Shown here piece by piece: positions 10,479-21,451 of a stretch of DNA of 64,000 nucleotides. The notes under the pieces are model-generated. The model made no database searches. It was not told where the DNA came from and was given only the letters and a program-made list of their open reading frames with translations. The DNA is from Alphaproteobacteria bacterium. GTDB lineage: Bacteria; Pseudomonadota; Alphaproteobacteria; UBA9219; RGZA01. The stretch spans positions 1-64,000 of the forward strand of contig JANRLI010000017.1 of the NCBI GenBank assembly GCA_033762625.1. The letters are read 5' to 3'. Numbering within the stretch: the first letter of the stretch is position 1; every line of letters starts with the position of its first letter. A program made the translations under genes and the position numbers.

Positions 10479-12590
10479 ATGAAACTGTTTTCAAAAAACA
10501 TAGCTGCATTAGCGCTTTTGTATTTCTTAGCCGCATTTGCTCTTCCATTACATGCGCAACAACCATCCGGTCAATGCACGATTGACCATAGCCTGCGCAC
10601 CAATACTGATAGCTTCGTGCAATGCCCTGTAAGTGACAGCAATGATGCTATACTTGAAGCAGGATTTAATGGTGTACGCCTTGATTCATCTGATGAAATC
10701 AGCAAGTCACCAATTTTTGTGCACAATATATGCAAATACGTTGATAATAATTCCGGCAGCTCGCTGTTTATTCCGTTAAAGACATCTGAAGAATGGGCTG
10801 CGTTTTTGACGCGCCCTGTAAGCGGTGTCCATTTGGCTGGATGCTGCTTGCCGCGTCCGATGGTGGTTGGCGATGTTCCAACCCCGCAAACATCATGTGA
10901 AAGCGGATGGGTATTCAAGGGCCTTGTTGATTCAGCTGACCACACGCATTTAATTGCTGAACCTGTTTCAAAATCGGCAGAGTCTGGATTTGTGCTTGCA
11001 AATAACCAAAGCGAAGACGGGTTCTATCCCGTGTTAAAGCTGCCGATGAACCGCGATGATATTTCTGCGGTTTTACCAGATAACTCGCGTCCTTCAAAAT
11101 CATACACTGCGCAATATGCGTGTTCAGGTCAGGATGACGCATTCTTGAACTTCCATATGCAGTGCGCCGGCACCAAATGGGTGACAACCAGCGCCAGCGA
11201 CGATGAAGCAGTAACAGCGCAAGCTAAGACCCAAGAAGTATCGATGGATGTTACGGCGACTACAACCCAAGAAACCACCAGCGCCAAGACAACTGCCGAT
11301 ATAAAGCCCGCAGCAACCTGTCAGACAAGTAAGCTGCGCGAATATACTAAGCCTTGCCCGAATGGTGCATCAGGATCCATCACTTACCGTGACGTTTTCA
11401 ACTCGTGCACCAAGCAGATTGAAGCACAAGTTGTCAGCCAAACCTGTGGTGGTATCACCGGCGGCACAACCGGTTGCACCGCAAGCACCCGTACACAAAC
11501 GGTAACTTGCCCAACCAATCCGGCGGGCACGATCACCACCGTGACGACGCATATCTGTGATGGTTCCAATAATGGCGCAGGTCGCGACAGCGTTAACACC
11601 ACCCGTCAGAACTGCCCGATTGGCGGCGGCACGACAGGTTGCACGCCAAGCACCAATACGCAGACACAAACCTGCCCAACCAATCCGGCGGGTACCATCA
11701 CCACGGTAACCAATCACATCTGCGATGGCACAAATAATGGCGCAGGCCGTGACCAGATTATTGTAACACGCCGCAACTGCGCAACCGGCGGTACAACAGG
11801 CTGCGTTGCATCAAGCAACACCAGTACGCAAACCTGCCCAACCAATCCGCTGGGCACCATCTCCACCATCACGGCGCATATTTGTGATGGCAGCAATGGC
11901 GGTTTAGGTCGCGACACAATTACGCAGACCCGCCAGAACTGCCCGATTGGCGGCGGCACGACTGGCTGTACCGCAACCACCAACACACAAACGGTAACCT
12001 GCCCAACCAATCCACTGGGCACCATCACGACAATTAGACGTCACATTTGCGATGGTTCGAACAATGGCGCAGGCCGTGATACGATTGATACCACCCGCCA
12101 GAACTGCCCGATTGGCGGCGGGACGACGGGCTGCACTCCATCAACCAATACCAACACAACGCCGTGCCCATCGGGACAAACGGGCAGCATCACCACCGTG
12201 ACCTCACGCGTGTGCGATGGCAGCAATAACGGTGCAGGCAGCACGACTTCAACCGTTACCAGCAACACCTGTGTAGCTGCACCACCGGGCGGCGGCACAA
12301 CCTATACCTGCAAGCCATCCGATGTGTTGACGACCAAGCCATGCCCCCAACCGAATAATGGGGGTATCATCACCGTTCGCCGTGTTAGGGTATGCGATGG
12401 CAGCAATAATGGCGCAGGAACTTCCACCGAAACGCTCTACCAAAACAACTGCGTACCCGCAGGATGTATCAAGAGCACCATCTTGAAAACCAGCACAGTT
12501 TGCCCAGGCGGTACGTTGGTCACGGCCAAGGTATATGATTCATGCACAAAGCAAGTATCGATCGAAACAATCAGCAATACGTGCAATTAA
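10479..12590 (+). CDS. Secreted cysteine-rich tandem-repeat protein
   Basis: A 703-residue exported protein. It has a signal peptide (about 1-27, ending L-H-A-Q), an N-terminal region of about 250 residues with scattered cysteines, and then repeats to the end. Six central units begin at about residue 332; four of them are 54-55 residues long and nearly identical. Each has four cysteines in the frame T-G-C ... T-C-P-T-N-P-x-G-T-I ... H-I-C-D-G-S-N-N-G-A-G-R-D ... N-C. The unit before them (from about residue 279) and the last unit (from about 663) instead carry S-C-T-K-Q and act as caps. The even cysteine count suggests intra-unit disulfides in the periplasm or outside the cell. The ATG at 10479 has GAAGAGAG upstream. 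No family is recognised; adhesin or coat-like roles are guesses. Confidence 0.85.
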   Translation: MKLFSKNIAALALLYFLAAFALPLHAQQPSGQCTIDHSLRTNTDSFVQCPVSDSNDAILEAGFNGVRLDSSDEISKSPIFVHNICKYVDNNSGSSLFIPLKTSEEWAAFLTRPVSGVHLAGCCLPRPMVVGDVPTPQTSCESGWVFKGLVDSADHTHLIAEPVSKSAESGFVLANNQSEDGFYPVLKLPMNRDDISAVLPDNSRPSKSYTAQYACSGQDDAFLNFHMQCAGTKWVTTSASDDEAVTAQAKTQEVSMDVTATTTQETTSAKTTADIKPAATCQTSKLREYTKPCPNGASGSITYRDVFNSCTKQIEAQVVSQTCGGITGGTTGCTASTRTQTVTCPTNPAGTITTVTTHICDGSNNGAGRDSVNTTRQNCPIGGGTTGCTPSTNTQTQTCPTNPAGTITTVTNHICDGTNNGAGRDQIIVTRRNCATGGTTGCVASSNTSTQTCPTNPLGTISTITAHICDGSNGGLGRDTITQTRQNCPIGGGTTGCTATTNTQTVTCPTNPLGTITTIRRHICDGSNNGAGRDTIDTTRQNCPIGGGTTGCTPSTNTNTTPCPSGQTGSITTVTSRVCDGSNNGAGSTTSTVTSNTCVAAPPGGGTTYTCKPSDVLTTKPCPQPNNGGIITVRRVRVCDGSNNGAGTSTETLYQNNCVPAGCIKSTILKTSTVCPGGTLVTAKVYDSCTKQVSIETISNTCN
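11472..12464 (+). repeat. Tandem coding repeats, period 162-165 bp
   Basis: In-frame repeat units begin at 11472, 11637, 11799, 11964 and 12129, with a more diverged sixth unit up to 12464. Unit lengths are 165, 162, 165 and 165 bases. The units are very similar at DNA level (shared strings such as TGCCCAACCAATCC), which favours copy-number change by recombination or slippage. Confidence 0.93.
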
Positions 12591-12672: not shown

Positions 12673-13749
12673 ATGCGCGTGAAATTTGTTTCCACATTTA
12701 TTCTTTCTTTATGCTTGTCATCCTGCATTGCCGTAGCACATGCGCAGACAATCGATAATGCGGGGGGCGAGCCGCCAAAGAAGGAAACATTACAAAAACA
12801 ATTCAAGAAGCATGTTGAAGATAAACCGCGCGATGAATTTTTAACACTCACCGTTGAAAATGACTCCCTCGCATCTGGTGCAGATAGAAACTATACCAAC
12901 GGCATACGTATAAGTTGGTATGATACCGGTGATCATCCACCCGCAATCGCCAGCTTTCTTGATACTATTATTCCGGTATTTCCGGTAAATGACACAACAT
13001 CGGTTTATTATTCCGTGGGTCAGAATTTATATACGCCGCGCGAATTATCATTGACGACCCCGGACCCTAAAGACCGACCCTATGCCGGATTTCTGTATGG
13101 CTCGGTGGGCATGTCTAATGTGACCAATAATCACCAAGATAATGTGGAATTGACGGTTGGCATCGTTGGCCCCTATTCCCTTGGCAAAGAAACGCAGGAA
13201 TTTGTTCATACCTTGTTGAACGCCGCATATCCCAAAGGTTGGGGACACCAGTTAAACACCGAAGTTGGCCTGATGGCATCATGGGAGCATCTGTGGCCGG
13301 AAGCCTATACCGCAGAAATGGGTGATTTGCATTTTCGTGCTTCGCCATATATTGGCGCAACACTTGGAAACATCTATACCTACGCGAATAGCGGATTAAT
13401 GTTTCAACTGGTTCCCAAACAATATAAATGGCAAACACCACCGCTGCGTGTTCGTCCCGCCATGCCGGGGAATGGATATTTCTCTGTACCCGAAGGCGAA
13501 TTTTCATGGTCACTCTTTGCAGGCTTTGAAGGCCGCGCAGTGGGACGAAATATTTTTCTTGATGGTAATACGTTTGAAGACAGCCCATCGGTTGGCAAGA
13601 AGCCGATCGTGGGTGATGCAAATATTGGCGTAGCCTTTACGTATGGGCACGCCCAGATCAATTATACGTTGAATTGGCGCGCGCCTGAATTTTATGGACA
13701 GGATAGCGCCGATCTGTTTGGCGCAGTGAGCATCGGATACCGGTTTTAA
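12673..13749 (+). CDS. lpxR: LpxR-type outer-membrane lipid A deacylase (DUF2219 family)
   Basis: A 358-residue exported outer-membrane beta-barrel. The signal peptide (about 1-25) ends in A-H-A-Q. The mature part carries the LpxR hallmark V-E-N-D-S...D-R-N-Y-T-N-G near its start and D-R-P-Y-A-G-F about 60 residues later, and it ends with the aromatic C-terminal residue (Y-R-F) typical of barrels recognised by BAM. Known LpxR enzymes remove the 3'-acyloxyacyl chain of lipid A in a Ca2+-dependent reaction; the N-D motif matches their active-site region. Activity here is inferred from the family. The stop codon lies 11 bases before the probable left end of the integrated element. Confidence 0.85.
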   Translation: MRVKFVSTFILSLCLSSCIAVAHAQTIDNAGGEPPKKETLQKQFKKHVEDKPRDEFLTLTVENDSLASGADRNYTNGIRISWYDTGDHPPAIASFLDTIIPVFPVNDTTSVYYSVGQNLYTPRELSLTTPDPKDRPYAGFLYGSVGMSNVTNNHQDNVELTVGIVGPYSLGKETQEFVHTLLNAAYPKGWGHQLNTEVGLMASWEHLWPEAYTAEMGDLHFRASPYIGATLGNIYTYANSGLMFQLVPKQYKWQTPPLRVRPAMPGNGYFSVPEGEFSWSLFAGFEGRAVGRNIFLDGNTFEDSPSVGKKPIVGDANIGVAFTYGHAQINYTLNWRAPEFYGQDSADLFGAVSIGYRF

Positions 13750-13760
13750 ACCCATTAAAC

Positions 13761-13774
13761 TGGCGGGGGGAAAG
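13761..13774 (+). other. Candidate left attachment core (displaced tRNA-Ser 3' end)
   Basis: TGGCGGGGGGAAAG matches the 15 bases at the tRNA-Ser 3' end (20352-20366, TGGCGGAGGGGAAAG) in the same orientation except for one missing A. It sits 11 bases after the lpxR stop codon, where a convergent tRNA gene could have ended before insertion. The match is short, so it needs support from an empty-site comparison. Confidence 0.5.
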
Positions 13775-13831
13775 CAGCCGAAAGGCCGCCCCAACCGCTT
13801 GATGTAAATAGCGTTTCATAATCTCCACCAC

Positions 13832-13854
13832 AAATCTACGCATATATCTACTCG
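13832..13854 (+). repeat. Candidate left integrase arm-type sites
   Basis: Two direct copies, AAATCTACGCA (13832-13842) and ATATCTACTCG (13844-13854), have a 12-base period. They differ by one and two bases from the perfect pair near the other end of the element (20215-20237), which is in the same orientation and has the same period. Position, spacing and pairing fit arm-binding sites of a tyrosine integrase. Confidence 0.6.
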
Positions 13855-13960
13855 CGTATGCTTAGGATTTAGCTGGACGCTATACGGCAAAGCAAATAGA
13901 AAATTTGTCAGCCATTAGTTTGGTTGACTTCAACCGCCATAAAACACCAAGGACTATCAA

Positions 13961-14488
13961 ATGATACGATTATTGCTTGTTGTACTATGTCTAACCCTGA
14001 CTTCCTGTGCAGGTAGTAGCTACGTAATCCGTGAGGCTATGGAAAAGACCACTAAAGAGATTGAATCATCATGTGGCAAGTTGACTCAGAAAACAGCTTT
14101 AAAACACGTATCATGCAAAGAAGACATAACGTCTAGAAATTTGTTGGCGGCAGGGCTTCCCTTTCCACCACAACTAAGAATGCAGTATGCTAAGGTAAAG
14201 GAACTTGCCTTAGAGTATCAAAATGGTCGTATAACCCTTGATGAATACGAAGTCAAAAAATCAAAGCTTTTTGCACAATATGCAGCCGATATAGACGCTG
14301 CTGAAAAGCAAGATGCACAACTAAGACATAATCAGAACATGATGTTATTGTCTCAACAGCAAGCTCGGCAGGAAAACTTTTACGATCAGCAGATGCAACA
14401 GATACGCGACACTCAAGCCATGCAAAACAATAATATAAACTGTAGCAGCAATAAAATAGGCAGCACGGTTTATACCAACTGCCACTAG
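13961..14488 (+). CDS. Small lipoprotein with C-terminal Cys motif (element cargo)
   Basis: A 175-residue protein with a lipoprotein signal (lipobox L-T-S-C, Cys16). The middle is a long, Gln- and charge-rich helical stretch (about 75-150), likely a coiled coil. The end is N-C-S-S-N-K-I-G-S-T-V-Y-T-N-C, a short two-cysteine motif of a type seen at the ends of other small proteobacterial proteins. An AAGGA ribosome-binding site lies 7 bases before the ATG. It is the first gene inside the element and AT-rich. The function is unknown; surface modification of the host cell is a guess. Confidence 0.72.
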   Translation: MIRLLLVVLCLTLTSCAGSSYVIREAMEKTTKEIESSCGKLTQKTALKHVSCKEDITSRNLLAAGLPFPPQLRMQYAKVKELALEYQNGRITLDEYEVKKSKLFAQYAADIDAAEKQDAQLRHNQNMMLLSQQQARQENFYDQQMQQIRDTQAMQNNNINCSSNKIGSTVYTNCH

Positions 14489-14511
14489 AAAATGTCAGCA
14501 TGTACATTTTT
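14489..14511. terminator. Weak AT-rich hairpin between convergent genes
   Basis: AAAATGT (14489-14495) pairs with ACATTTT (14504-14510). It overlaps the stop region of the lipoprotein gene and precedes the end of the convergent zinc-ribbon gene. It is a possible terminator, with low stem stability. Confidence 0.35.
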
Positions 14512-14517
14512 CGTGAA

Positions 14518-15066
14518 CTAAAGAAAGTGCCATTTGCCATTAAAATAAGAAACAAAAGACTTGTTCCATGAAGCATTTGTACGTTCAAGAATGCGGTTAT
14601 AGGTTTTCCAGTGCATGCGTGGGGGCTTGAAATCCTCACTGCCGCCTATTGCCTCTAGCTTGCCCAATAACTTGAATGACAAACCTAGGCCACGCTTGCG
14701 TGGATTTTCCAACTGGCTGGCATAGCAAAGCTTCTGGCAACGCCTACAGGCGAAGCGCCTAGCGCGATAAAAAAGCCTCCCTGCCCGTCTATAACAAATC
14801 GGGCATTCAAACCACGGGCGTTTATTCCCGTAATGACAGGCTGTCCAAAGAATGACTATTGCCTGCCTGATAGGATCGCCATTGGCTGAGTAATTTAATT
14901 CAAGGCTGTTAGCAAAACGGCATACAAAGCTTATGCTTCCTGCACGGTTATCTTCATCACCCCAATACATACTACCGGAAACATATTTTTCTAAGTCAAT
15001 ATATCCCCACCGCAGTAATTTATTCATGCTTAACCCAAGTGTACTTTCAACACACAGCTTGCCCAT
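14518..15066 (-). CDS. Zinc-ribbon protein of integrative elements, unknown function
   Basis: A 182-residue protein. The centre holds R-P-W-F-E-C-P-I-C (Cys88, Cys91) and F-A-C-R-R-C (Cys107, Cys110), a four-cysteine zinc ribbon, followed by C-Y-A-S-Q and a basic region ending M-H-W-K-T-Y. From memory, similar proteins with the pattern W-F-x-C-P...C-R-x-C...Y-A-S-Q are common orphans in proteobacterial islands and prophages; no function is established to my knowledge. The ATG at 15066 is preferred because AGGGTG lies before it, over the GTG at 15075. Nucleic-acid binding is inferred from the ribbon and the basic tail. Confidence 0.75.
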   Translation of the reverse strand: MGKLCVESTLGLSMNKLLRWGYIDLEKYVSGSMYWGDEDNRAGSISFVCRFANSLELNYSANGDPIRQAIVILWTACHYGNKRPWFECPICYRRAGRLFYRARRFACRRCQKLCYASQLENPRKRGLGLSFKLLGKLEAIGGSEDFKPPRMHWKTYNRILERTNASWNKSFVSYFNGKWHFL

Positions 15067-15253
15067 GGCAATCACCCTGCACTTGATATTTTATCGAAAT
15101 CATTTGGAAAATAAAGTATGGGCCTTTGATGTTACTGTTTATTGTAGAGCATACTTTTTCCATTTTTGTCAGTGTTTTTTGTGCTTACGTCTCTGGACGT
15201 TGTGATATACCTTATAGCGAAAGCTAATTAATTAGAGTGGCGCGAGAGATAGC

Positions 15254-15559
15254 ATGTGGAATATTATCATTGTCGTAGCTTTGATAGTTGTATTGATAAA
15301 ATCATGCGGTATTGGCGATGAATGTAAATCCTATTCTGATTTTACCTGCAAAGAAATTGAAACAGCTGATTACAATGTTTACTTCTTTTTCCCAAATGGT
15401 GAAAAAGATTATCACCTTGGAAAAGTAAAAGGGCTGCCTGCTTGTGGCGATACAGCTTGGGATTATGCGGCCTCAAAAAATCTTACCTCAAACAAGGACT
15501 GGTCATATATTTGTTGTATGATTGCAAAAGGCAGCTCCTGTTATGAAAAGCACAAGTGA
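15254..15559 (+). CDS. Small membrane-anchored or exported Cys-rich protein
   Basis: A 101-residue protein with one hydrophobic N-terminal helix (about 2-16), followed by a small soluble domain with eight cysteines. These include a C-C pair (I-C-C-M) and a final C near the end, consistent with a disulfide-stabilised domain outside the cytoplasm. A GAGAGA-type ribosome-binding site is present. It lies alone between the oppositely oriented zinc-ribbon and ATPase genes and is AT-rich. I do not recognise the family. Confidence 0.65.
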   Translation: MWNIIIVVALIVVLIKSCGIGDECKSYSDFTCKEIETADYNVYFFFPNGEKDYHLGKVKGLPACGDTAWDYAASKNLTSNKDWSYICCMIAKGSSCYEKHK

Positions 15560-15632
15560 TGATACCAAGTTTTTTGCCTAATGCTTACATGCGATGCCCT
15601 TCATATTAGCCACCTTCCTTAATCCGTCGATA

Positions 15633-15656
15633 GAAACCGATTAAACCGATAAAACC
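15633..15656 (+). repeat. Iteron-like 9-nt repeats, left block
   Basis: Two adjoining copies of AAACCGAT(T/A) are followed by AAACC, just beyond the stop codon of the ATPase gene. The 24-base block matches, in inverted orientation and with 2 mismatches, a block inside the 5' end of the same gene (17445-17470). It may be an origin iteron cluster for the element's replication protein. Confidence 0.5.
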
Positions 15657-17536
15657 TACTTTACCTGTTCAACCGTCCATGCTTCCGCAGAACGGCTTCC
15701 ACTATCACGAATAAAACGAAGCCCATTCACCATGCGTCCCGAATGCCGCTGAATCCACCGCCCCAAAACACGCCGATTGATAATGCCTTTCTCGCTTGCA
15801 ATATCGTGAATGACTTCCTGCAAATCGGTATCCATGCAATTAACGGCTTGCCTTACCATTGTTGGCTTATCCCAAAAGCATCGCTGCCAATTTTGTAAAA
15901 GCGTGCCCAGCGTATCGCGGTCTGGATCATCCGCCATAGATTCATAAACAGCCGTAGCGGGGTCTGCCTGCCCCAGCCACAATAAAGGCTGACGGCAAAG
16001 ATTTGACCATTCATCAAACCCATTGAGAGCTTTGCACTTTGTCTCAGGTCGCCCCGCAACAATCCATGCGCGAATGATTGTGAGTGCCGCTGAAACATAT
16101 CGCCCGCGTTCTCGCAACACATCTTGCACCAAACGTGGATTTGTAAATGTGCGTGTGGCTGGGGTTTCACAAGTGGGGTCTAATGTGATGGTTACACATC
16201 GCCTTGTCATATCACCTACAGGGCAGACATTGTTTCCGCTTGATAAAAACAATGCGCGGGTACTAACAGTGGCGGTCTTTGAAACGCCAAGAATGCGCCC
16301 CTGTAAGTATTCAGAGGTTAATGTGGTGCAAAGGCTTTTATGCGGTACAATATTACCTGTCAGATTGTCAAACTCCACCACCGCAGGCGCAGTTAGCAAT
16401 GTTGCCAGCAAGAATTTGCGACATTCTTCATCATCCTGCGGAAAGGTAGTGGGCGCACCCCGTTGCGGGGATGCAAAGGCAATAATCAGTGAGCAAAGAT
16501 ACGATTTGCCAGAGCCAAATTGTGCAGCCTTAACATGAAACATTGGTGCACAAGTCAGGCTTGAACGTATGGCAGCGGTAAGGAAAGCACATAATCCAGC
16601 GGCCTTATCTGTGTGCTTTGCAAAGCTGAATTCTTCCAGCACGCTAAGCAATAATTTTAGTGCATTTTCTGCATCCCCCTTTGTGGGTTTTTCCGGCACA
16701 TTGAAATCCTTGGCAGCAAAAACGCCAAACATGCCCGTTTCCACATCATATCCCGCAGCGTTCCGCAATGTACCATCTGGCCTTAAATAAGGTTGCCGTG
16801 TTAGACCGTTCAATACAGGCAAGTGGCGATATTCGGGCGCATCAAGCAAAACACCTGCATGACGCGCAGGCGGGTCTATTCGGACAAATTCTTTAGAGCG
16901 TCCATCATACCTTTCCCAATTCAATGCCCCCGCTAATGCAGCAACTAAGGAAGATAGCTTTAATCCCTGCACCGTTGTTTCACGTGTGCTGGGGTCTGTG
17001 CAAACAATAACAATTAGACCACCGCGCTGATAATATTGGCTACCTTTAGCAAGTTCTTTTTCGGCTGCATTTGCTATGCGACCAATTTCACCCGCCTGCA
17101 CCCGAATAGTGGGCTTCATATGCGCTGCATTTTTTTGAATACCCAAACATTCCAAGAGCTGACTGATATGCTTATTTTTGCAATCCCCATGCTGACACTT
17201 AAAGCCACCTATCGGAAAATTATCATCTGGTTCAAAATAAGCTGTGCCTGCATCCATCGCGTCCGTGTGCTCATTAACCCACGGGCAGGTTATATCGTGC
17301 CTCCCACCGCCTAGAGGCGATTTGTAAAGGCCACGGGCTTGTAAAGCTATAAAAACAGCATTTTCGGTAGGGCTAGGAATTAAAATTTGCTCCCCACCAT
17401 CTTCCCGCTGCTTATTTTTTTGTGCCTTTTTAGATTGTCCCCTGTCGGTTATATCGGTTTTATCGGTTTCTGTGCTAGAAACAGCTAAAACTGTGATTGC
17501 GTGAACATCGTTATAAGGTTGCGTTAAATCTGACAT
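15656..17536 (-). CDS. Helicase/primase-like ATPase of the element
   Basis: A 626-residue protein. A low-complexity start (about 1-50) precedes a likely zinc-binding module with His80, Cys84, Cys114, His116 and Cys119, similar in layout to primase-associated fingers. The second half is a P-loop ATPase with Walker A Q-F-G-S-G-K-S (339-345) and a Walker B-like V-V-E-F-D-N (385-390), followed by an S-S-G-N sensor-type motif. This arrangement matches replication proteins of satellites and islands that combine DNA-binding or priming with a helicase motor. No primase catalytic acid triad is evident by eye, so helicase loader or DUF927/DUF3987-like function remains possible. Its start overlaps the end of the upstream HTH gene by 13 bases. 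Confidence 0.78.
   Translation of the reverse strand: MSDLTQPYNDVHAITVLAVSSTETDKTDITDRGQSKKAQKNKQREDGGEQILIPSPTENAVFIALQARGLYKSPLGGGRHDITCPWVNEHTDAMDAGTAYFEPDDNFPIGGFKCQHGDCKNKHISQLLECLGIQKNAAHMKPTIRVQAGEIGRIANAAEKELAKGSQYYQRGGLIVIVCTDPSTRETTVQGLKLSSLVAALAGALNWERYDGRSKEFVRIDPPARHAGVLLDAPEYRHLPVLNGLTRQPYLRPDGTLRNAAGYDVETGMFGVFAAKDFNVPEKPTKGDAENALKLLLSVLEEFSFAKHTDKAAGLCAFLTAAIRSSLTCAPMFHVKAAQFGSGKSYLCSLIIAFASPQRGAPTTFPQDDEECRKFLLATLLTAPAVVEFDNLTGNIVPHKSLCTTLTSEYLQGRILGVSKTATVSTRALFLSSGNNVCPVGDMTRRCVTITLDPTCETPATRTFTNPRLVQDVLRERGRYVSAALTIIRAWIVAGRPETKCKALNGFDEWSNLCRQPLLWLGQADPATAVYESMADDPDRDTLGTLLQNWQRCFWDKPTMVRQAVNCMDTDLQEVIHDIASEKGIINRRVLGRWIQRHSGRMVNGLRFIRDSGSRSAEAWTVEQVK
17445..17470 (-). 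repeat. Iteron-like 9-nt repeats, right block (within the ATPase gene)
   Basis: Read on the minus strand, two perfect copies of AAACCGATA are followed by a diverged third (TAACCGACA). They encode T-D-K-T-D-I-T-D near residue 23 of the ATPase. The block is the inverted counterpart of 15633-15656. Its coding frame is a low-complexity region, so DNA-level selection is plausible. Confidence 0.5.
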
Positions 17537-17946
17537 TGCAAACCTCCTGAGATAACTCGAATGATGATCTGCGTTTTCAAGAAATAACGTCCATATTTTG
17601 AAGCCCCGTGACGGCCTTTATGCGAAACACGTATGCATTCCACATCAAGCGCATATTCATGCCGGAATACGCTTACGTGCTGCGTGAGGCTTAAAATGCC
17701 AAATTTTGAAAGAGCTTCAATTCGGGTCAGGCCATTCATTTCACATTGTTTCAGGTGCATAAGTGAACGTGCCAAAGTTCCCTTAATAACATGTGTGTAT
17801 GGCGGCTCAGAACCACCACCGGATACAACAGTAATTGTTATTTTTGGCTGCTTAGCTTGATTTATTGTTGGTCTTTGAGTATATTTGGTGGGTGAAATTG
17901 AGATTGCCGCATGGTTCCCGCCTGCGGCTTTTTCTTTATCCTTCAT
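17524..17946 (-). CDS. Winged-helix/HTH-type protein of the element
   Basis: A 140-residue protein. A disordered N-terminal third is followed by a helical region with L-T-R-I-E-A-L-S-K-F-G-I-L-S-L-T-Q-H-V-S-V-F-R-H-E, typical of HTH_39-like domains that turn on a Leu-x-x-x-x-Ala-Leu-x-x-x-Gly-Ile frame. A basic beta-hairpin (K-G-R-H-G-A-S-K-Y-G-R-Y) ends it and may be the wing. The start at 17946 overlaps the end of alpA and has GGTGA upstream; an in-frame ATG at 17958 is the alternative. It is probably translated coupled to alpA and the ATPase gene. It is likely a regulator or replication accessory protein. Confidence 0.65.
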   Translation of the reverse strand: MKDKEKAAGGNHAAISISPTKYTQRPTINQAKQPKITITVVSGGGSEPPYTHVIKGTLARSLMHLKQCEMNGLTRIEALSKFGILSLTQHVSVFRHEYALDVECIRVSHKGRHGASKYGRYFLKTQIIIRVISGGLQCQI

Positions 17947-18151
17947 GGCGGTCACCATTTTTCAAACGTGAAGCTTCTATTTGTTTTTTGATCCAGTTTT
18001 GTATGGATTCGGCTTCCCAGCCCACTGCTCTGGCATTCTCTCCCAATGGGAAAGGGGCAGGGAATGTGCCTTGGGAGATTTTTAGGTAGATACTGGAATT
18101 GGATAGCCCAGTGAGCCTTTTTACTTCTGGCTTTCGTAATATCTGTAGCAT
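17936..18151 (-). CDS. AlpA-family regulator/excisionase-like protein
   Basis: A 71-residue protein of the AlpA (MerR-like HTH) family. It has the opening L-R-x-P-E-V-x-x-L-T-G-L-S-x-S-S-I-Y and the wing residues F-P-x-P-x-x-L-G, followed by V-G-W-x-x-x-x-I-x-x-W-I. AlpA proteins regulate integrase and excision genes in P4-like elements. A GGAG ribosome-binding site lies 8 bases before the ATG and falls in the right arm of a perfect inverted repeat. It heads the operon alpA-HTH-ATPase. Confidence 0.9.
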   Translation of the reverse strand: MLQILRKPEVKRLTGLSNSSIYLKISQGTFPAPFPLGENARAVGWEAESIQNWIKKQIEASRLKNGDRHEG

Positions 18152-18160
18152 GGCGTTAAC

Positions 18161-18180
18161 TCCATTAGGGTTCTAATGGA
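18161..18180 (-). promoter_or_regulatory. Perfect inverted repeat over the alpA ribosome-binding site
   Basis: TCCATTAG (18161-18168) and CTAATGGA (18173-18180) are perfect 8-base arms around a 4-base spacer. The arm nearest alpA contains the GGAG that would bind ribosomes. It could be a protein operator or an RNA hairpin that masks translation. Confidence 0.6.
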
Positions 18181-18210
18181 AGCAACGTAATATGCATGAA
18201 ATATCAATCG

Positions 18211-18243
18211 GGCGAATTCGCCAAAGATTTTAGCGAATTCGCT
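18211..18243. promoter_or_regulatory. Two tandem 12-bp palindromes upstream of alpA
   Basis: GGCGAATTCGCC (18211-18222) and AGCGAATTCGCT (18232-18243) are each perfect palindromes, with centres 21 bases apart, i.e. two helical turns. They lie between alpA and the upstream gene, 60-92 bases before the alpA start. The spacing fits cooperative binding of a dimeric repressor on one face of the DNA. Confidence 0.6.
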
Positions 18244-18887
18244 TATTTTTCTTTGCGAGCATCAGGATAATGGTTTTCCCACGCCTCTTTTATCCATTTA
18301 CCAAGGGTTTCATCATCAATTTGAATACCTGTTTTGATTATGGAATCGTGAAGCATACTGATTTTAGGTATTTTTTCTTTGATGGCAGTTTTGTAATGCG
18401 CCAAAAGAAGTCCAACAATAATTTTCATTAAGGTGGCTTTCTCTTTTGTTTGTGCCGTTAGATTCTCTCTTTTTGGCTTTATTATTTCCTGAGGTTTTTG
18501 AGAGAATGTTTTTACAGCAGTAGTGAGTTTTCGGGGAATTGAAATCCTCATTTTCTTTGCCCAAGCAATAATTTTGTATGGGGGATTATGGTATGGCACC
18601 AAGTCGTGCAGCCGACCAAAACCCACGTTTTGAATTTGTTTTGAAAGCTCGTTATGGCTCTTTATGACATCAGGTGCATAATCTGTAGCGTCATAACATT
18701 TATCCGGATTCAACCCTTTTAGTAGGGCTGCGGCTTGGTCGTCATCCCAAGTTGCCATTCTAGCCCAGTGTTTATAATCCGGCTCCATAACGTTTCTTTT
18801 GTTTACTTGTGGTGTTCGAGGAGTCGAGCCGCCTGAAATCATTATTTCTGGGAGCGGTGGGGATAATTTTTTTCTTATTATTGTCAT
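18243..18887 (-). CDS. Element protein of unknown function
   Basis: A 214-residue, strongly basic, AT-rich gene product. A disordered start is followed by H-W-A-R-M-A-T-W-D-D-D-Q-A-A-A-L-L-K-G-L-N-P, a motif in which a Trp and an Ala-Leu-Leu-x-Gly-x-x-P turn mark a short helical domain that I associate with small phage/island proteins. The C-terminal third is helical and charged. The ATG at 18887 is preferred over the frame's first start at 18953 because CTGGAG lies 6 bases before it. It lies between alpA and the integrase on the same strand. The function is not known. Confidence 0.6.
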   Translation of the reverse strand: MTIIRKKLSPPLPEIMISGGSTPRTPQVNKRNVMEPDYKHWARMATWDDDQAAALLKGLNPDKCYDATDYAPDVIKSHNELSKQIQNVGFGRLHDLVPYHNPPYKIIAWAKKMRISIPRKLTTAVKTFSQKPQEIIKPKRENLTAQTKEKATLMKIIVGLLLAHYKTAIKEKIPKISMLHDSIIKTGIQIDDETLGKWIKEAWENHYPDARKEK

Positions 18888-18971
18888 TTTTGACTCCAGA
18901 TTTTGAAATAGCAAATATTCATAGTCGCACCCCTCGCTTGCTTTCACAGGCATTCTACGTAAACGCCCCCC

Positions 18972-20195
18972 CTACCCCAGCCGTTGTTTATGGATCGGAA
19001 TGATTTTCTTATCATCGCTACTCAATCTAAGTGCATCCAAAATATCCGCATAGTCCTGCATCATCTTTTTGCGTTCCAAAAGGTATTCTGCACGGTTATA
19101 GGCCGAGCGGATTTTGTCGTTATCTTCATGTGCTAGTTGGCGTTCAATCACGTCGGGGGCATAGCTTTTTTCGTTTAAGATGGTGGAAGCAAGGGAACGA
19201 AAACCATGTCCTGTCATAAGGCCTTGGTATCCCATGCGGCGTAAAGCCATAAGCACCGCGCCATTGCTGATATGCTTACTCTTACCGCGCTGGCTATGGA
19301 ACACGTTTTGCTTTTCGCCTGTTATTTCTTGTAAGCCTCTAAGAAGGGCAATCGCTTGGCGAGACAGTGGAACAAGATGGGGACGCTTCATCTTCATGCG
19401 TTCTTTGGGGATATGCCATTCTTCCCTATCGAAGTTTATTTCATCCCACCGCGCACCTATCAACTCTCCTGTGCGTACAAAAGTAAGGGCAAGCAACTGC
19501 ATCGCTGGCTTGGTTAGGTTATCGCCCTTATAGGCTTCCATATCCTTCAACAGTTTTGGAAATTCGCTGGGATGGATGCAGGCATGATGCTTTTCTTCTG
19601 CGGTGGGCAATATGTCCCGCAAATCTGCGGCTGGGTTATTCTGACACAAACCCCGTTGCGCTGCGTACCGGAAGACTTGCCCGATAAGTTGCTTCATACG
19701 CTTGGCAGTTTCTATCGTGCCGCGCTTGCTGATTTTCTCCACAACACGCACAACATCGGGGATAGTTATTTCAATAATTGGAAACGCACCAATAATAGGA
19801 AAAACGTGCTGTTCCATGCGCTCAAGGGATTGCTTGCGGTATTTGGCGTTTAGCTTGCCGCCTTTAATTTCCATCCAATTACGGGCTATGCGCTCAAAGG
19901 TGTTTTCGCCTTCAACTGATTTGCGTAGTTTTTGGGCAGCTTTCTCACGGGTAGGATGTTTTCCTTCCGTTGCCAGTGACCGCGCCTCATCCCGTTTCTT
20001 ACGGGCTTGCTCCAAGCCAACATCAGGGAATTTACCCAAGGCCAGCATTTGCTGCTTACCGTTAAAGTAATATCGCCACCGCCACAGCTTGCCTCCTGTA
20101 GGGGCTATCTCAAGGCACAGGCCACCGTTATCAGCAACACGGTAGATTTTAGCTTTTGGCTTGAGGTTCTTGATAGCTAAGGCCGTGAGTGCCAT
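18972..20195 (-). CDS. int: Tyrosine integrase, P4/DUF4102 type
   Basis: A 407-residue site-specific recombinase. The N-terminal DUF4102 arm-binding domain (about 1-90, with A-L-G-K-F-P-D-V-G-L-E-Q-A-R) precedes a core-binding domain. The catalytic domain has Arg241 (R-T-G-E-L), His330-x-x-Arg333 (H-G-F-R), His356 and nucleophile Tyr366 (A-Y-N-R), so all key residues are present. The gene lies next to tRNA-Ser and points away from it, the usual position for enzymes that insert into tRNA 3' ends. Candidate arm sites lie 20 bases upstream of its start. Confidence 0.96.
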   Translation of the reverse strand: MALTALAIKNLKPKAKIYRVADNGGLCLEIAPTGGKLWRWRYYFNGKQQMLALGKFPDVGLEQARKKRDEARSLATEGKHPTREKAAQKLRKSVEGENTFERIARNWMEIKGGKLNAKYRKQSLERMEQHVFPIIGAFPIIEITIPDVVRVVEKISKRGTIETAKRMKQLIGQVFRYAAQRGLCQNNPAADLRDILPTAEEKHHACIHPSEFPKLLKDMEAYKGDNLTKPAMQLLALTFVRTGELIGARWDEINFDREEWHIPKERMKMKRPHLVPLSRQAIALLRGLQEITGEKQNVFHSQRGKSKHISNGAVLMALRRMGYQGLMTGHGFRSLASTILNEKSYAPDVIERQLAHEDNDKIRSAYNRAEYLLERKKMMQDYADILDALRLSSDDKKIIPIHKQRLG

Positions 20196-20214
20196 GCGTT
20201 TGAGTCCTATGGGT

Positions 20215-20237
20215 AAATCTACTCACAAATCTACTCA
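20215..20237 (+). repeat. Candidate right integrase arm-type sites
   Basis: Two perfect direct copies of AAATCTACTCA (20215-20225 and 20227-20237) have a 12-base period. They lie between the integrase start and the tRNA. The similar pair at 13832-13854 is in the same orientation at the other end of the element. Confidence 0.65.
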
Positions 20238-20301
20238 TAACTCGGCTGGATTGCAAAAAATTTCTCTGGACGGCATCAGATAGAAAAATAACTTTTTGCT
20301 T

Positions 20302-20340
20302 ATAAAAATAAAGGCATCTCAGATTTCTCTGGATGCCTTT
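20302..20340 (-). terminator. Terminator downstream of tRNA-Ser
   Basis: AAAGGCATC (20310-20318) pairs with GATGCCTTT (20332-20340), with further pairing of CAGA and TCTG inside the loop. On the minus strand it is followed by ATTTTTAT. It lies just past the tRNA and inside the element end, so the tRNA transcript now appears to end within element DNA. Confidence 0.85.
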
Positions 20341-20351
20341 GAATTTGTAAT

Positions 20352-20366
20352 TGGCGGAGGGGAAAG
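20352..20366 (+). other. Right attachment core within tRNA-Ser 3' end
   Basis: TGGCGGAGGGGAAAG is the 3' end of the tRNA gene on the opposite strand, including CCA. It is the intact partner of the near-copy at 13761-13774. Crossover within this stretch would restore a functional tRNA. Confidence 0.5.
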
Positions 20367-20441
20367 GATTTGAACCTTCGAAACCCTTGCGGGTTTAACG
20401 GTTTTCGAGACCGCCGCGATCGACCACTCTGCCACCCCTCC
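20352..20441 (-). tRNA. tRNA-Ser(CGA)
   Basis: A 90-base gene including the encoded CCA. The acceptor arms GGAGGGG and CCCCTCC pair. The anticodon loop is C-T-CGA-A-A on a five-pair stem, giving anticodon CGA for UCG codons. The T-arm has the GGTTCAAATCC consensus, and the long variable arm is typical of serine tRNAs. Its 3' end is the integration site of the adjacent element. Confidence 0.96.
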
Positions 20442-20515: not shown

Positions 20516-21451
20516 TTATTTCTTAAGCGCAGCCGTTAATTCCGGCACGATTTGGAACAAATCGCCCACCAAACCATAATCTGCGACGTTAAAAATGGGT
20601 GCATCGGGGTCTTTGTTAATCGCAACAATCACCTTGCTGTCTTTCATACCCGCCAGATGTTGAATAGCACCGGAAATACCCACTGCTACGTACAGGTCTG
20701 GGGCAACAATTTTACCCGTCTGCCCCACTTGATAATCATTGGGGACAAAGCCTGCATCTACCGCCGCACGTGATGCACCAATCGCCCCGCCAACCACATC
20801 GGCGAGCTGTTCAAGCATTTTGAAATTTTCGCCCGAACCCAAACCGCGGCCGCCGGATATTACAACCTTTGCTGCTGTCAATTCAGGGCGCTCTGATTTG
20901 GAAACTTCGCGGCCCACAAAGCTGGAAAGGCCGGCATCTGCTGTGGCGGCAACCTTTTCAATAGCCGTATTGCCGCCTGTTGCAGGCACCGCATCAAAGG
21001 ATGTTGCGCGCACGGTGCATAGCTTTATTGCATCTGTGGATTGCACAGTAGCAATGGCATTTCCGGCATAGATTGGCCGTTTAAAAGTATCCGCGCTTTC
21101 AACCGATGAAATTTCGGAAATCGGCGCAACGTCCATTAATGCGCCGACGCGTGGCAGCAGGTTTTTACCAAAGCTGGTTGCCGCGACAAATACATGCGTA
21201 TAGTTTTTGGCAAGCTGCGCAACAAGTGGCGCTTCGTTTTCTGCCAAATCATCCTTGTATTGCGCGCCTTCGCTGACCAGCACTTTTTCAAGGCCGCTGA
21301 TTTTACCGGCCGCATCGATCACAGCTGCGCCCGCATTACACATGACAAGACCGTCAGCTGGGCAGTTTAATTTTTTTGCAGCAGCGATGGCGTGCAGCGT
21401 GGCAGATTTAACCGCAACGCCGTCATGTTCAAGAATAATAAGTGCACGCAT
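20516..21451 (-). CDS. etfA: Electron transfer flavoprotein alpha subunit
   Basis: FAD-binding subunit of the heterodimer that carries electrons from acyl-CoA and other flavoprotein dehydrogenases to ETF-ubiquinone oxidoreductase. The 311-residue length is normal. The C-terminal FAD domain shows [12 protein letters not shown], then [10 protein letters not shown] and V-G-Q-T-G-K-I-V-x-P-D-L-Y, and the [11 protein letters not shown] motif. It is one base downstream of etfB and co-transcribed. Confidence 0.97.

Follow-up and report, generated by a model that had tools for sequence, protein, structure and literature searches.

A 6.6 kb integrative element at tRNA-Ser(CGA) from a widespread int-alpA-rep family, with inverted iteron arms around rep

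The window analysed here is the whole 64-kb stretch of DNA, which belongs to the forward strand of an alphaproteobacterial genome of 2.23 Mb in 26 contigs; it holds a 6.6 kb integrative element at a tRNA-Ser(CGA) gene (positions 13761-20366). The tRNA site, the likely ends, the gene content, the relatives having the same backbone with a variable cargo, and a pair of inverted iteron arms around the replication gene, rep, are directly observed. It is probable that this element is a member of a widespread family of int-alpA-rep elements, which is excised as a circle, replicated from a split origin by its Rep protein and transferred by a helper. A more tentative proposal, which we regard as possible, is that such elements are a new, multi-phylum group of helper-dependent satellites, having an origin that is split into two inverted composite half-sites around rep, with iterons that are common to tailed phages that may be the helpers.

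Target site, ends and core genes

The target gene, tRNA-Ser(CGA), is on the minus strand at 20352-20441; it is the sole tRNA found by ARAGORN, and it is restored by the insertion. The 3' end of this tRNA, TGGCGGAGGGGAAAG (attR, 20352-20366, plus strand), is repeated at the left end of the element as TGGCGGGGGGAAAG (attL, 13761-13774, plus strand), the two copies agreeing over 14/15 nt, with a one-base difference by which attL is the shorter copy. The flank outside the left end is ATTAAACTGGCGG (TAAACTGGCGG), and the tRNA border in two same-genus genomes, G001 and G002, is AATAAACTGGCGG; the outer flank, TAAAC, is as at the tRNA of these two genomes, as it would be if the left repeat had kept the former flank of the tRNA. 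A 24-nt pattern search finds the double site AAATCTACKCAYAWATCTACTCRY inside both ends, as AAATCTACGCATATATCTACTCGC (13832-13855) and AAATCTACTCACAAATCTACTCAT (20215-20238), both on the plus strand, and nowhere else in the window, with 0 sites expected from 100 shuffles when allowing <=3 mismatches. The pattern is derived from these two sites themselves, and the evidence lies in their likeness, uniqueness and placement. The double sites look like the arm sites of an integrase, and the boundaries of the element are well supported, although no empty site has been seen. The tRNA, the end repeats and the arm-type sites together confirm the small tRNA-integrated element that a first-pass annotation had placed here.

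Leftwards from the tRNA 3' end, the gene order is int, p236, alpA, HTH144 and rep, all on the minus strand; beyond rep are ZnR185 (minus strand) and then exp101 and exp175 (both plus strand). The element encodes both a tyrosine integrase (int, 18972-20195, 407 aa), with matches to Arm-DNA-bind_3, Phage_int_M and Phage_integrase, and the excisionase/regulator AlpA (alpA, 17936-18151, 71 aa; AlpA match with an E-value of 4e-14). Adjoining int is p236 (18243-18953), a conserved protein with a homologue in an element of Legionella adelaidensis, and between alpA and rep is HTH144 (17524-17958), a winged-helix protein of 144 aa matching Pfam HTH_91. No Pfam family is matched by p236, exp101 or Rep. 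The gene set that had been predicted at first (an integrase, AlpA, a helix-turn-helix protein, a P-loop Rep, two small exported proteins and one with a zinc ribbon) is present, and among the element proteins no capsid, terminase, relaxase or transfer gene is found in Pfam and PHROG profile searches.

Relatives with the same backbone

No matches to Rep came from single-sequence scans of genome contigs and viral contigs, and an alignment query was needed. Two further genomes from the same taxonomic order encode Rep homologues of 61-67% identity, as does a MOBH plasmid of Legionella adelaidensis. The genes of the Legionella element are int, FRG protein, p236 homologue, alpA, rep, ZnR185 homologue, a layout that keeps the int-p236-alpA-rep-ZnR succession of the window element. 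The alignment query finds at least 115 loci with close Rep relatives, of which 80 are kept, from five phyla (Pseudomonadota, Nitrospirota, Acidobacteriota, Verrucomicrobiota and Fibrobacterota); many of these loci are binned metagenome contigs, and the host of any single case is uncertain. The gene alpA directly precedes rep in 52 of the 71 loci with enough upstream DNA, int is present on one side in 33 of 46 loci, and a ZnR185 homologue follows rep in 15 of 67. In the window, HTH144 separates alpA from rep, with int near and Rep homologous, which matches the family order; an HTH144 homologue also precedes rep in the relative L091. In nine loci (G014 being counted twice, as L041 and L101), a tRNA 3' end is repeated across the module, bounding elements of 7 to 17 kb. 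These repeats are of tRNA-Glu (56 nt), tRNA-Asn (47 nt), tRNA-Lys (49 nt), tRNA-His (51 nt), tRNA-Arg (52 nt), tRNA-Ser (27, 16 and 14 nt) and tRNA-Tyr (15 nt), and the 14- and 16-nt repeats of tRNA-Ser resemble the short repeat of the window element.

The relatives carry variable cargo, among it restriction proteins of types I and III, an FRG protein and Cas9-CRISPR. At tRNA-Ala(GGC) of genome G009 (L057:6086-19703, G009:C71), Cas9-Cas1-Cas2 and CRISPR-like repeats are present between int and alpA, the far end of this element not being located. A conserved int-alpA-rep order with variable cargo, which had been sought as a test of the initial proposal, is found in many genomes. These loci outline a large family, spread over several bacterial phyla, that appears not to have been described and whose elements probably depend on a helper; no description of the family or of its split arms was found in the open-access literature, a search whose scope is open-access text and is no proof of novelty. 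As a side observation, two further elements from this taxonomic order (L061:10400-14900 and L062:10500-15240) are at tRNA-Met and encode an integrase, a prim-pol-like protein and a very distant relative of the helicase.

Rep is absent from both same-genus genomes. In G001, the order is EtfA, tRNA-Ser, 5.7 kb of other genes and the LpxR 3' end, with the same flanks as in the window, where LpxR (12673-13749) is the left neighbour and EtfA (20516-21451) the right neighbour. The 5.7-kb insert encodes a SWIM-type protein, a pair of proteins matching a candidate defence system and a Dps-like protein, the SWIM and Dps proteins being named by eye. In G002 (L038:1-3400, G002:C30), a D12 methyltransferase and a PD-Lambda-5-like protein are found between a 58-nt tRNA repeat and the same tRNA-Ser. 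Judged from these gene orders, the tRNA-Ser(CGA) site is an insertion hotspot. The comparison with an empty site in relatives, as suggested by the first-pass annotation, is thereby answered in part: the element is absent from G001 and G002, but a truly empty tRNA-Ser(CGA) site is not found in them. LpxR was also considered as a universal left flank, which holds in G001 and fails in G002, where LpxR is elsewhere. Separately, the tRNA-Ser of G002 is also bordered by about six 79-bp tandem repeats that hold a tRNA 5' fragment.

The Rep protein and the inverted arms

Rep (rep, 15656-17536, minus strand, 626 aa; Rep626) has zinc-finger-like Cys/His motifs and P-loop motifs and matches PHROG 29234 at 3e-90, whereas no Pfam match is found up to an E-value of 0.1, including DUF3987 (PF13148), DUF5906 (PF19263) and PF03288. 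The predicted structure, calculated from an input alignment from which one plasmid-collection row was left out, has a pLDDT of 85, with residues 1-48 disordered. In Foldseek searches, this model matches the C-terminal region of the NrS-1 polymerase, the SaPI5 primase-helicase, PriRep1 and poxvirus D5/E5 with E-values between about 1e-6 and 1e-8; the TM-scores are only 0.3-0.5 and the identities 9-13%. The model is therefore clear for the fold class, that of a D5/SF3-type helicase as shared by the solved structures of the SaPI5 primase-helicase, PriRep1, the NrS-1 polymerase and poxvirus D5, close kinship to these not being evident. The initial statement that the replication protein matches no known system does not hold, as the predicted fold is of the SaPI PriRep/NrS-1 kind.

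The Rep proteins of the relatives are longer by about 200 residues close to the N terminus, a stretch in which LDD and GK residues are conserved. This domain is putatively a RepB primase, from its NCBI name and a sub-threshold Pfam match. In the relatives L116, L124, L133 and L152, the primase and helicase halves are separate frames, and three further Reps look short because a contig end truncates them. No trace of the primase domain is found in the window. The adjective 'minimal', as used at first for the element, is apt: not only are its genes few, but its Rep also lacks the primase domain that is kept by nearly all relatives.

The longest inverted repeat of the region is formed by the 3' arm AAACCGATTAAACCGATAAAACCTAC (15632-15659, plus strand), at the rep stop codon, and the 5' arm AAACCGATAAAACCGATATAACCGAC (17444-17471, minus strand), within the first codons of rep; the two arms are inverted with respect to each other and 89% complementary, with AAACCGAY units at both rep ends. 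They are 1.8 kb apart in the window and up to 2.7 kb apart in relatives. The composite site is TGACAsTTTt followed by (RAAACCGAY)2-3, the outer TGACA part of the 3' arm being degenerate in the window element, and the triple unit occurs exactly twice in the 2.23-Mb genome, both times at rep. Of 92 loci, a few of which duplicate each other, 63 have the motif ACNGAYAAAACNGAY close to the start of rep, with few exceptions on the strand of rep itself, and 61 have it close to the end of rep, with few exceptions on the other strand; the background elsewhere is 0.12 per kb. The arrangement is also seen when no motif is used: for 61 of 93 reps, the 5' region and the reverse-complemented 3' region score higher in local alignment than any of 20 shuffles, compared with 12 of 93 in direct orientation and 15 of 198 other large open reading frames (ORFs) as control, where only two scores are >=30, both from ORFs antisense to rep. 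Where the outer motif is present, its spacing to the iterons is the preferred 29 bp in 28 of 32 and 27 of 35 sites.

Within the motif, Lys codons are AAA in 62 of 62 cases versus 52% in the remainder of the gene, and Thr codons are ACC in 90% versus 42%; moreover, several relatives have their 3' arm at or past the rep stop codon. This argues that the DNA, and not the protein, is conserved. In a distant Rep clade, the unit RAAGGCGGY is present at both rep ends, which indicates that the two ends change together. The Methylobacterium plasmid pMt-1, encoding a 33%-identical Rep, has the composite site (TGACAGTT, a spacer, GAAAC and AAACCCC units) as two inverted copies immediately behind rep, with 91 bp between them, and two small Psychrobacter plasmids have inverted repeats behind rep, one with an AT-rich stretch between them. 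The replication of phage P4 likewise depends on two iteron sites, ori and crr, which are separated from each other. In the phage-inducible chromosomal islands (PICIs) of Gram-negative bacteria, two iteron sets are found around an AT-rich stretch 3' of rep (PMC6092414). Because of the inverted pairs of these plasmids and the iteron sets of the PICIs, the arms are read as half-sites of an origin on either side of rep, and they are likely a split replication origin.

It is improbable that the arms are instead operator sites, cassette ends or an mRNA 5'-3' pairing element. They do flank a single gene, and in the relatives L146 and L147 the pairing extends far past the iterons, in agreement with such roles; yet the composite site is a classic inverted pair behind rep in pMt-1, the number of units varies from two to eight among relatives, as is the case for iterons, and the distant clade has its different unit at both ends. 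Transposon ends are rejected, as the rep start codon is outside the 5' site, a position that also argues against cassette ends.

Helper, alternatives and known systems

When 2.9 million viral contigs are scanned for three perfect units without regard to rep, eleven loci are found, including the element-like contig L146/L167. In five of the eleven, four of which are from one phage lineage, a distant Rep relative ends within about 150 bp (<=~150 bp) of the units, which have the same inverted orientation, and in three of these five the genes beyond look like terminase when read by eye. The tailed-phage contigs with these iterons beyond the distant Rep are L166, L168, L169 and L175. Such iterons hint at shared ancestry or at a helper relation. 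In L146, a viral contig of 7,075 bp, additional inward-pointing iteron clusters are seen near both contig ends, beyond those at rep.

In the proposed mechanism, AlpA and Int would excise a circle, after which Rep, as a D5-like helicase, would bind the two inverted arms and open the origin. Since the primase domain of Rep is gone, a host or helper primase would prime; since the element encodes no transfer gene, it must rely on something else for its transfer, and a helper (a phage particle or a conjugative system) may serve for this. The exported proteins would be passenger genes. Several points weigh against this proposal. The one-base mismatch of attL and attR makes the repeat weak evidence when taken alone, and an empty attB is not found, G001 and G002 both having other DNA beside the tRNA. 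No excised circle is seen among circular, terminally redundant contigs, and the attP junction has no match in the viral contigs. The positions of the elements in relatives come from repeats, short or long, and not from experiments. The binding of Rep to the arms is something we infer, the arms examined have on average no AT-rich opening region beside them, and without the primase domain replication may be defective.

This last point leads to the alternative that the element is a decaying copy, which the loss of the primase domain has left unable to replicate or move. The short attL and the absence from ZnR185 of the MGGxGSGR start agree with this, but Int, AlpA, p236, HTH144 and the helicase all have open reading frames of full length, the arms have kept their complementarity and the tRNA is intact, making decay rather unlikely. 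A true phage satellite, in which phage infection turns on alpA and particles package the element DNA, as in the phage-inducible chromosomal minimalist islands (PICMIs), is a serious possibility, if not quite the favoured one. The int-X-alpA-Y-rep backbone is the PICMI order, tailed phages have the same iterons beside a distant Rep (three members of the lineage also beside putative terminase genes), and relatives carry defence cargo. On the other hand, no helper, cos/pac site, packaging gene or capsid-remodelling gene is found, and the missing attP junction in viral contigs counts against packaging too. No resident helper or prophage is evident in this genome, in a prophage search that was not exhaustive; the one terminase match in the genome (PF03237) is within a cluster at G000:C11, ~80-96 kb (L157, L158), which by its gene order we read as gene-transfer-agent-like. 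Conjugative mobilization in trans, as for an integrative and mobilizable element (IME) having an oriT without a relaxase, or passive spread on plasmids, is unlikely. It would agree with the relative on the MOBH plasmid of L. adelaidensis and with the lack of phage genes, but the element lacks a relaxase, unlike an IME with relaxase, and VirB4/TrbE is not found in this genome. Of the P4/PICI-style satellite that the first-pass annotation had suggested, the integration/excision and replication genes and the absence of transfer genes stand, whereas the label 'satellite' is no more than plausible.

The PICMIs of Vibrionaceae (PMC10803314) are also ~6 kb in size, without capsid genes and with short direct repeats at the ends, and have the order int, neighbour gene, alpA, gene, replication protein. 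Unlike the window element, they are inserted beside fis, their primase has DUF3987 (PF13148)/DUF5906 (PF19263), both lacking in Rep626, and their phage dependence has been shown. P4-like satellites (PMC8628076) share the integrase, AlpA, a replication protein of the primase-helicase class, tRNA-type integration and variable defence cargo; unlike them, the window element has no Pfam or PHROG match for Psu, Sid, delta or epsilon, and its Rep lacks both the PF03288 match of the alpha protein and the primase domain. Gram-negative PICIs (PMC6092414) have int, alpA and pri-rep and use two iteron sets as origin, but both sets are 3' of rep, whereas here there is one inverted set per rep end; also, no packaging or interference gene is seen in the window element. 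The tmRNA-integrated islands of Pseudomonas, I55 and kin (PMC12595487), which are moved by a jumbo phage, are alike in the tyrosine integrase, AlpA, 14-bp direct repeats, defence cargo and absence of transfer genes; they are larger, with other core genes (YqaJ, RadC, Gp2-like), and a primase is unmentioned in that text. The element thus belongs, in reduced form, to a large family, which is PICMI- or P4-like in its backbone and falls outside both groups by their own membership tests.

Most known satellites are from a few well-studied genera, whereas the int-alpA-rep family, which carries defence systems on a three-gene backbone, is found in many environmental bacteria. The inverted iteron arms provide a sequence signature for spotting such elements in raw genomes. 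They also raise the testable question of initiation by a D5/PriRep-type helicase with origin halves that flank its own gene, ~2 kb apart, and the primase-less Rep of the window asks whether the helicase half suffices.

The remaining genes of the element are ZnR185 (14518-15075, minus strand), a zinc-ribbon protein of 185 aa, and the predicted passengers exp101 (15254-15559, plus strand), a small exported protein, and exp175 (13961-14488, plus strand), a predicted lipoprotein or exported protein. ZnR185, whose homologue follows rep in part of the family, has only a weak match, of IS1595 type (E-value 0.05), lacks the conserved start of its family and has no tblastn match in plasmids. Neither exp175 nor exp101 has a relative among the family loci, and their assignment as defence proteins was dropped, as there is no PADLOC support. 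Outside the element, a 708-aa exported protein adjoining LpxR contains tandem 165-bp coding repeats, Cys-rich and Thr-rich, at 11499-12283 of the window.

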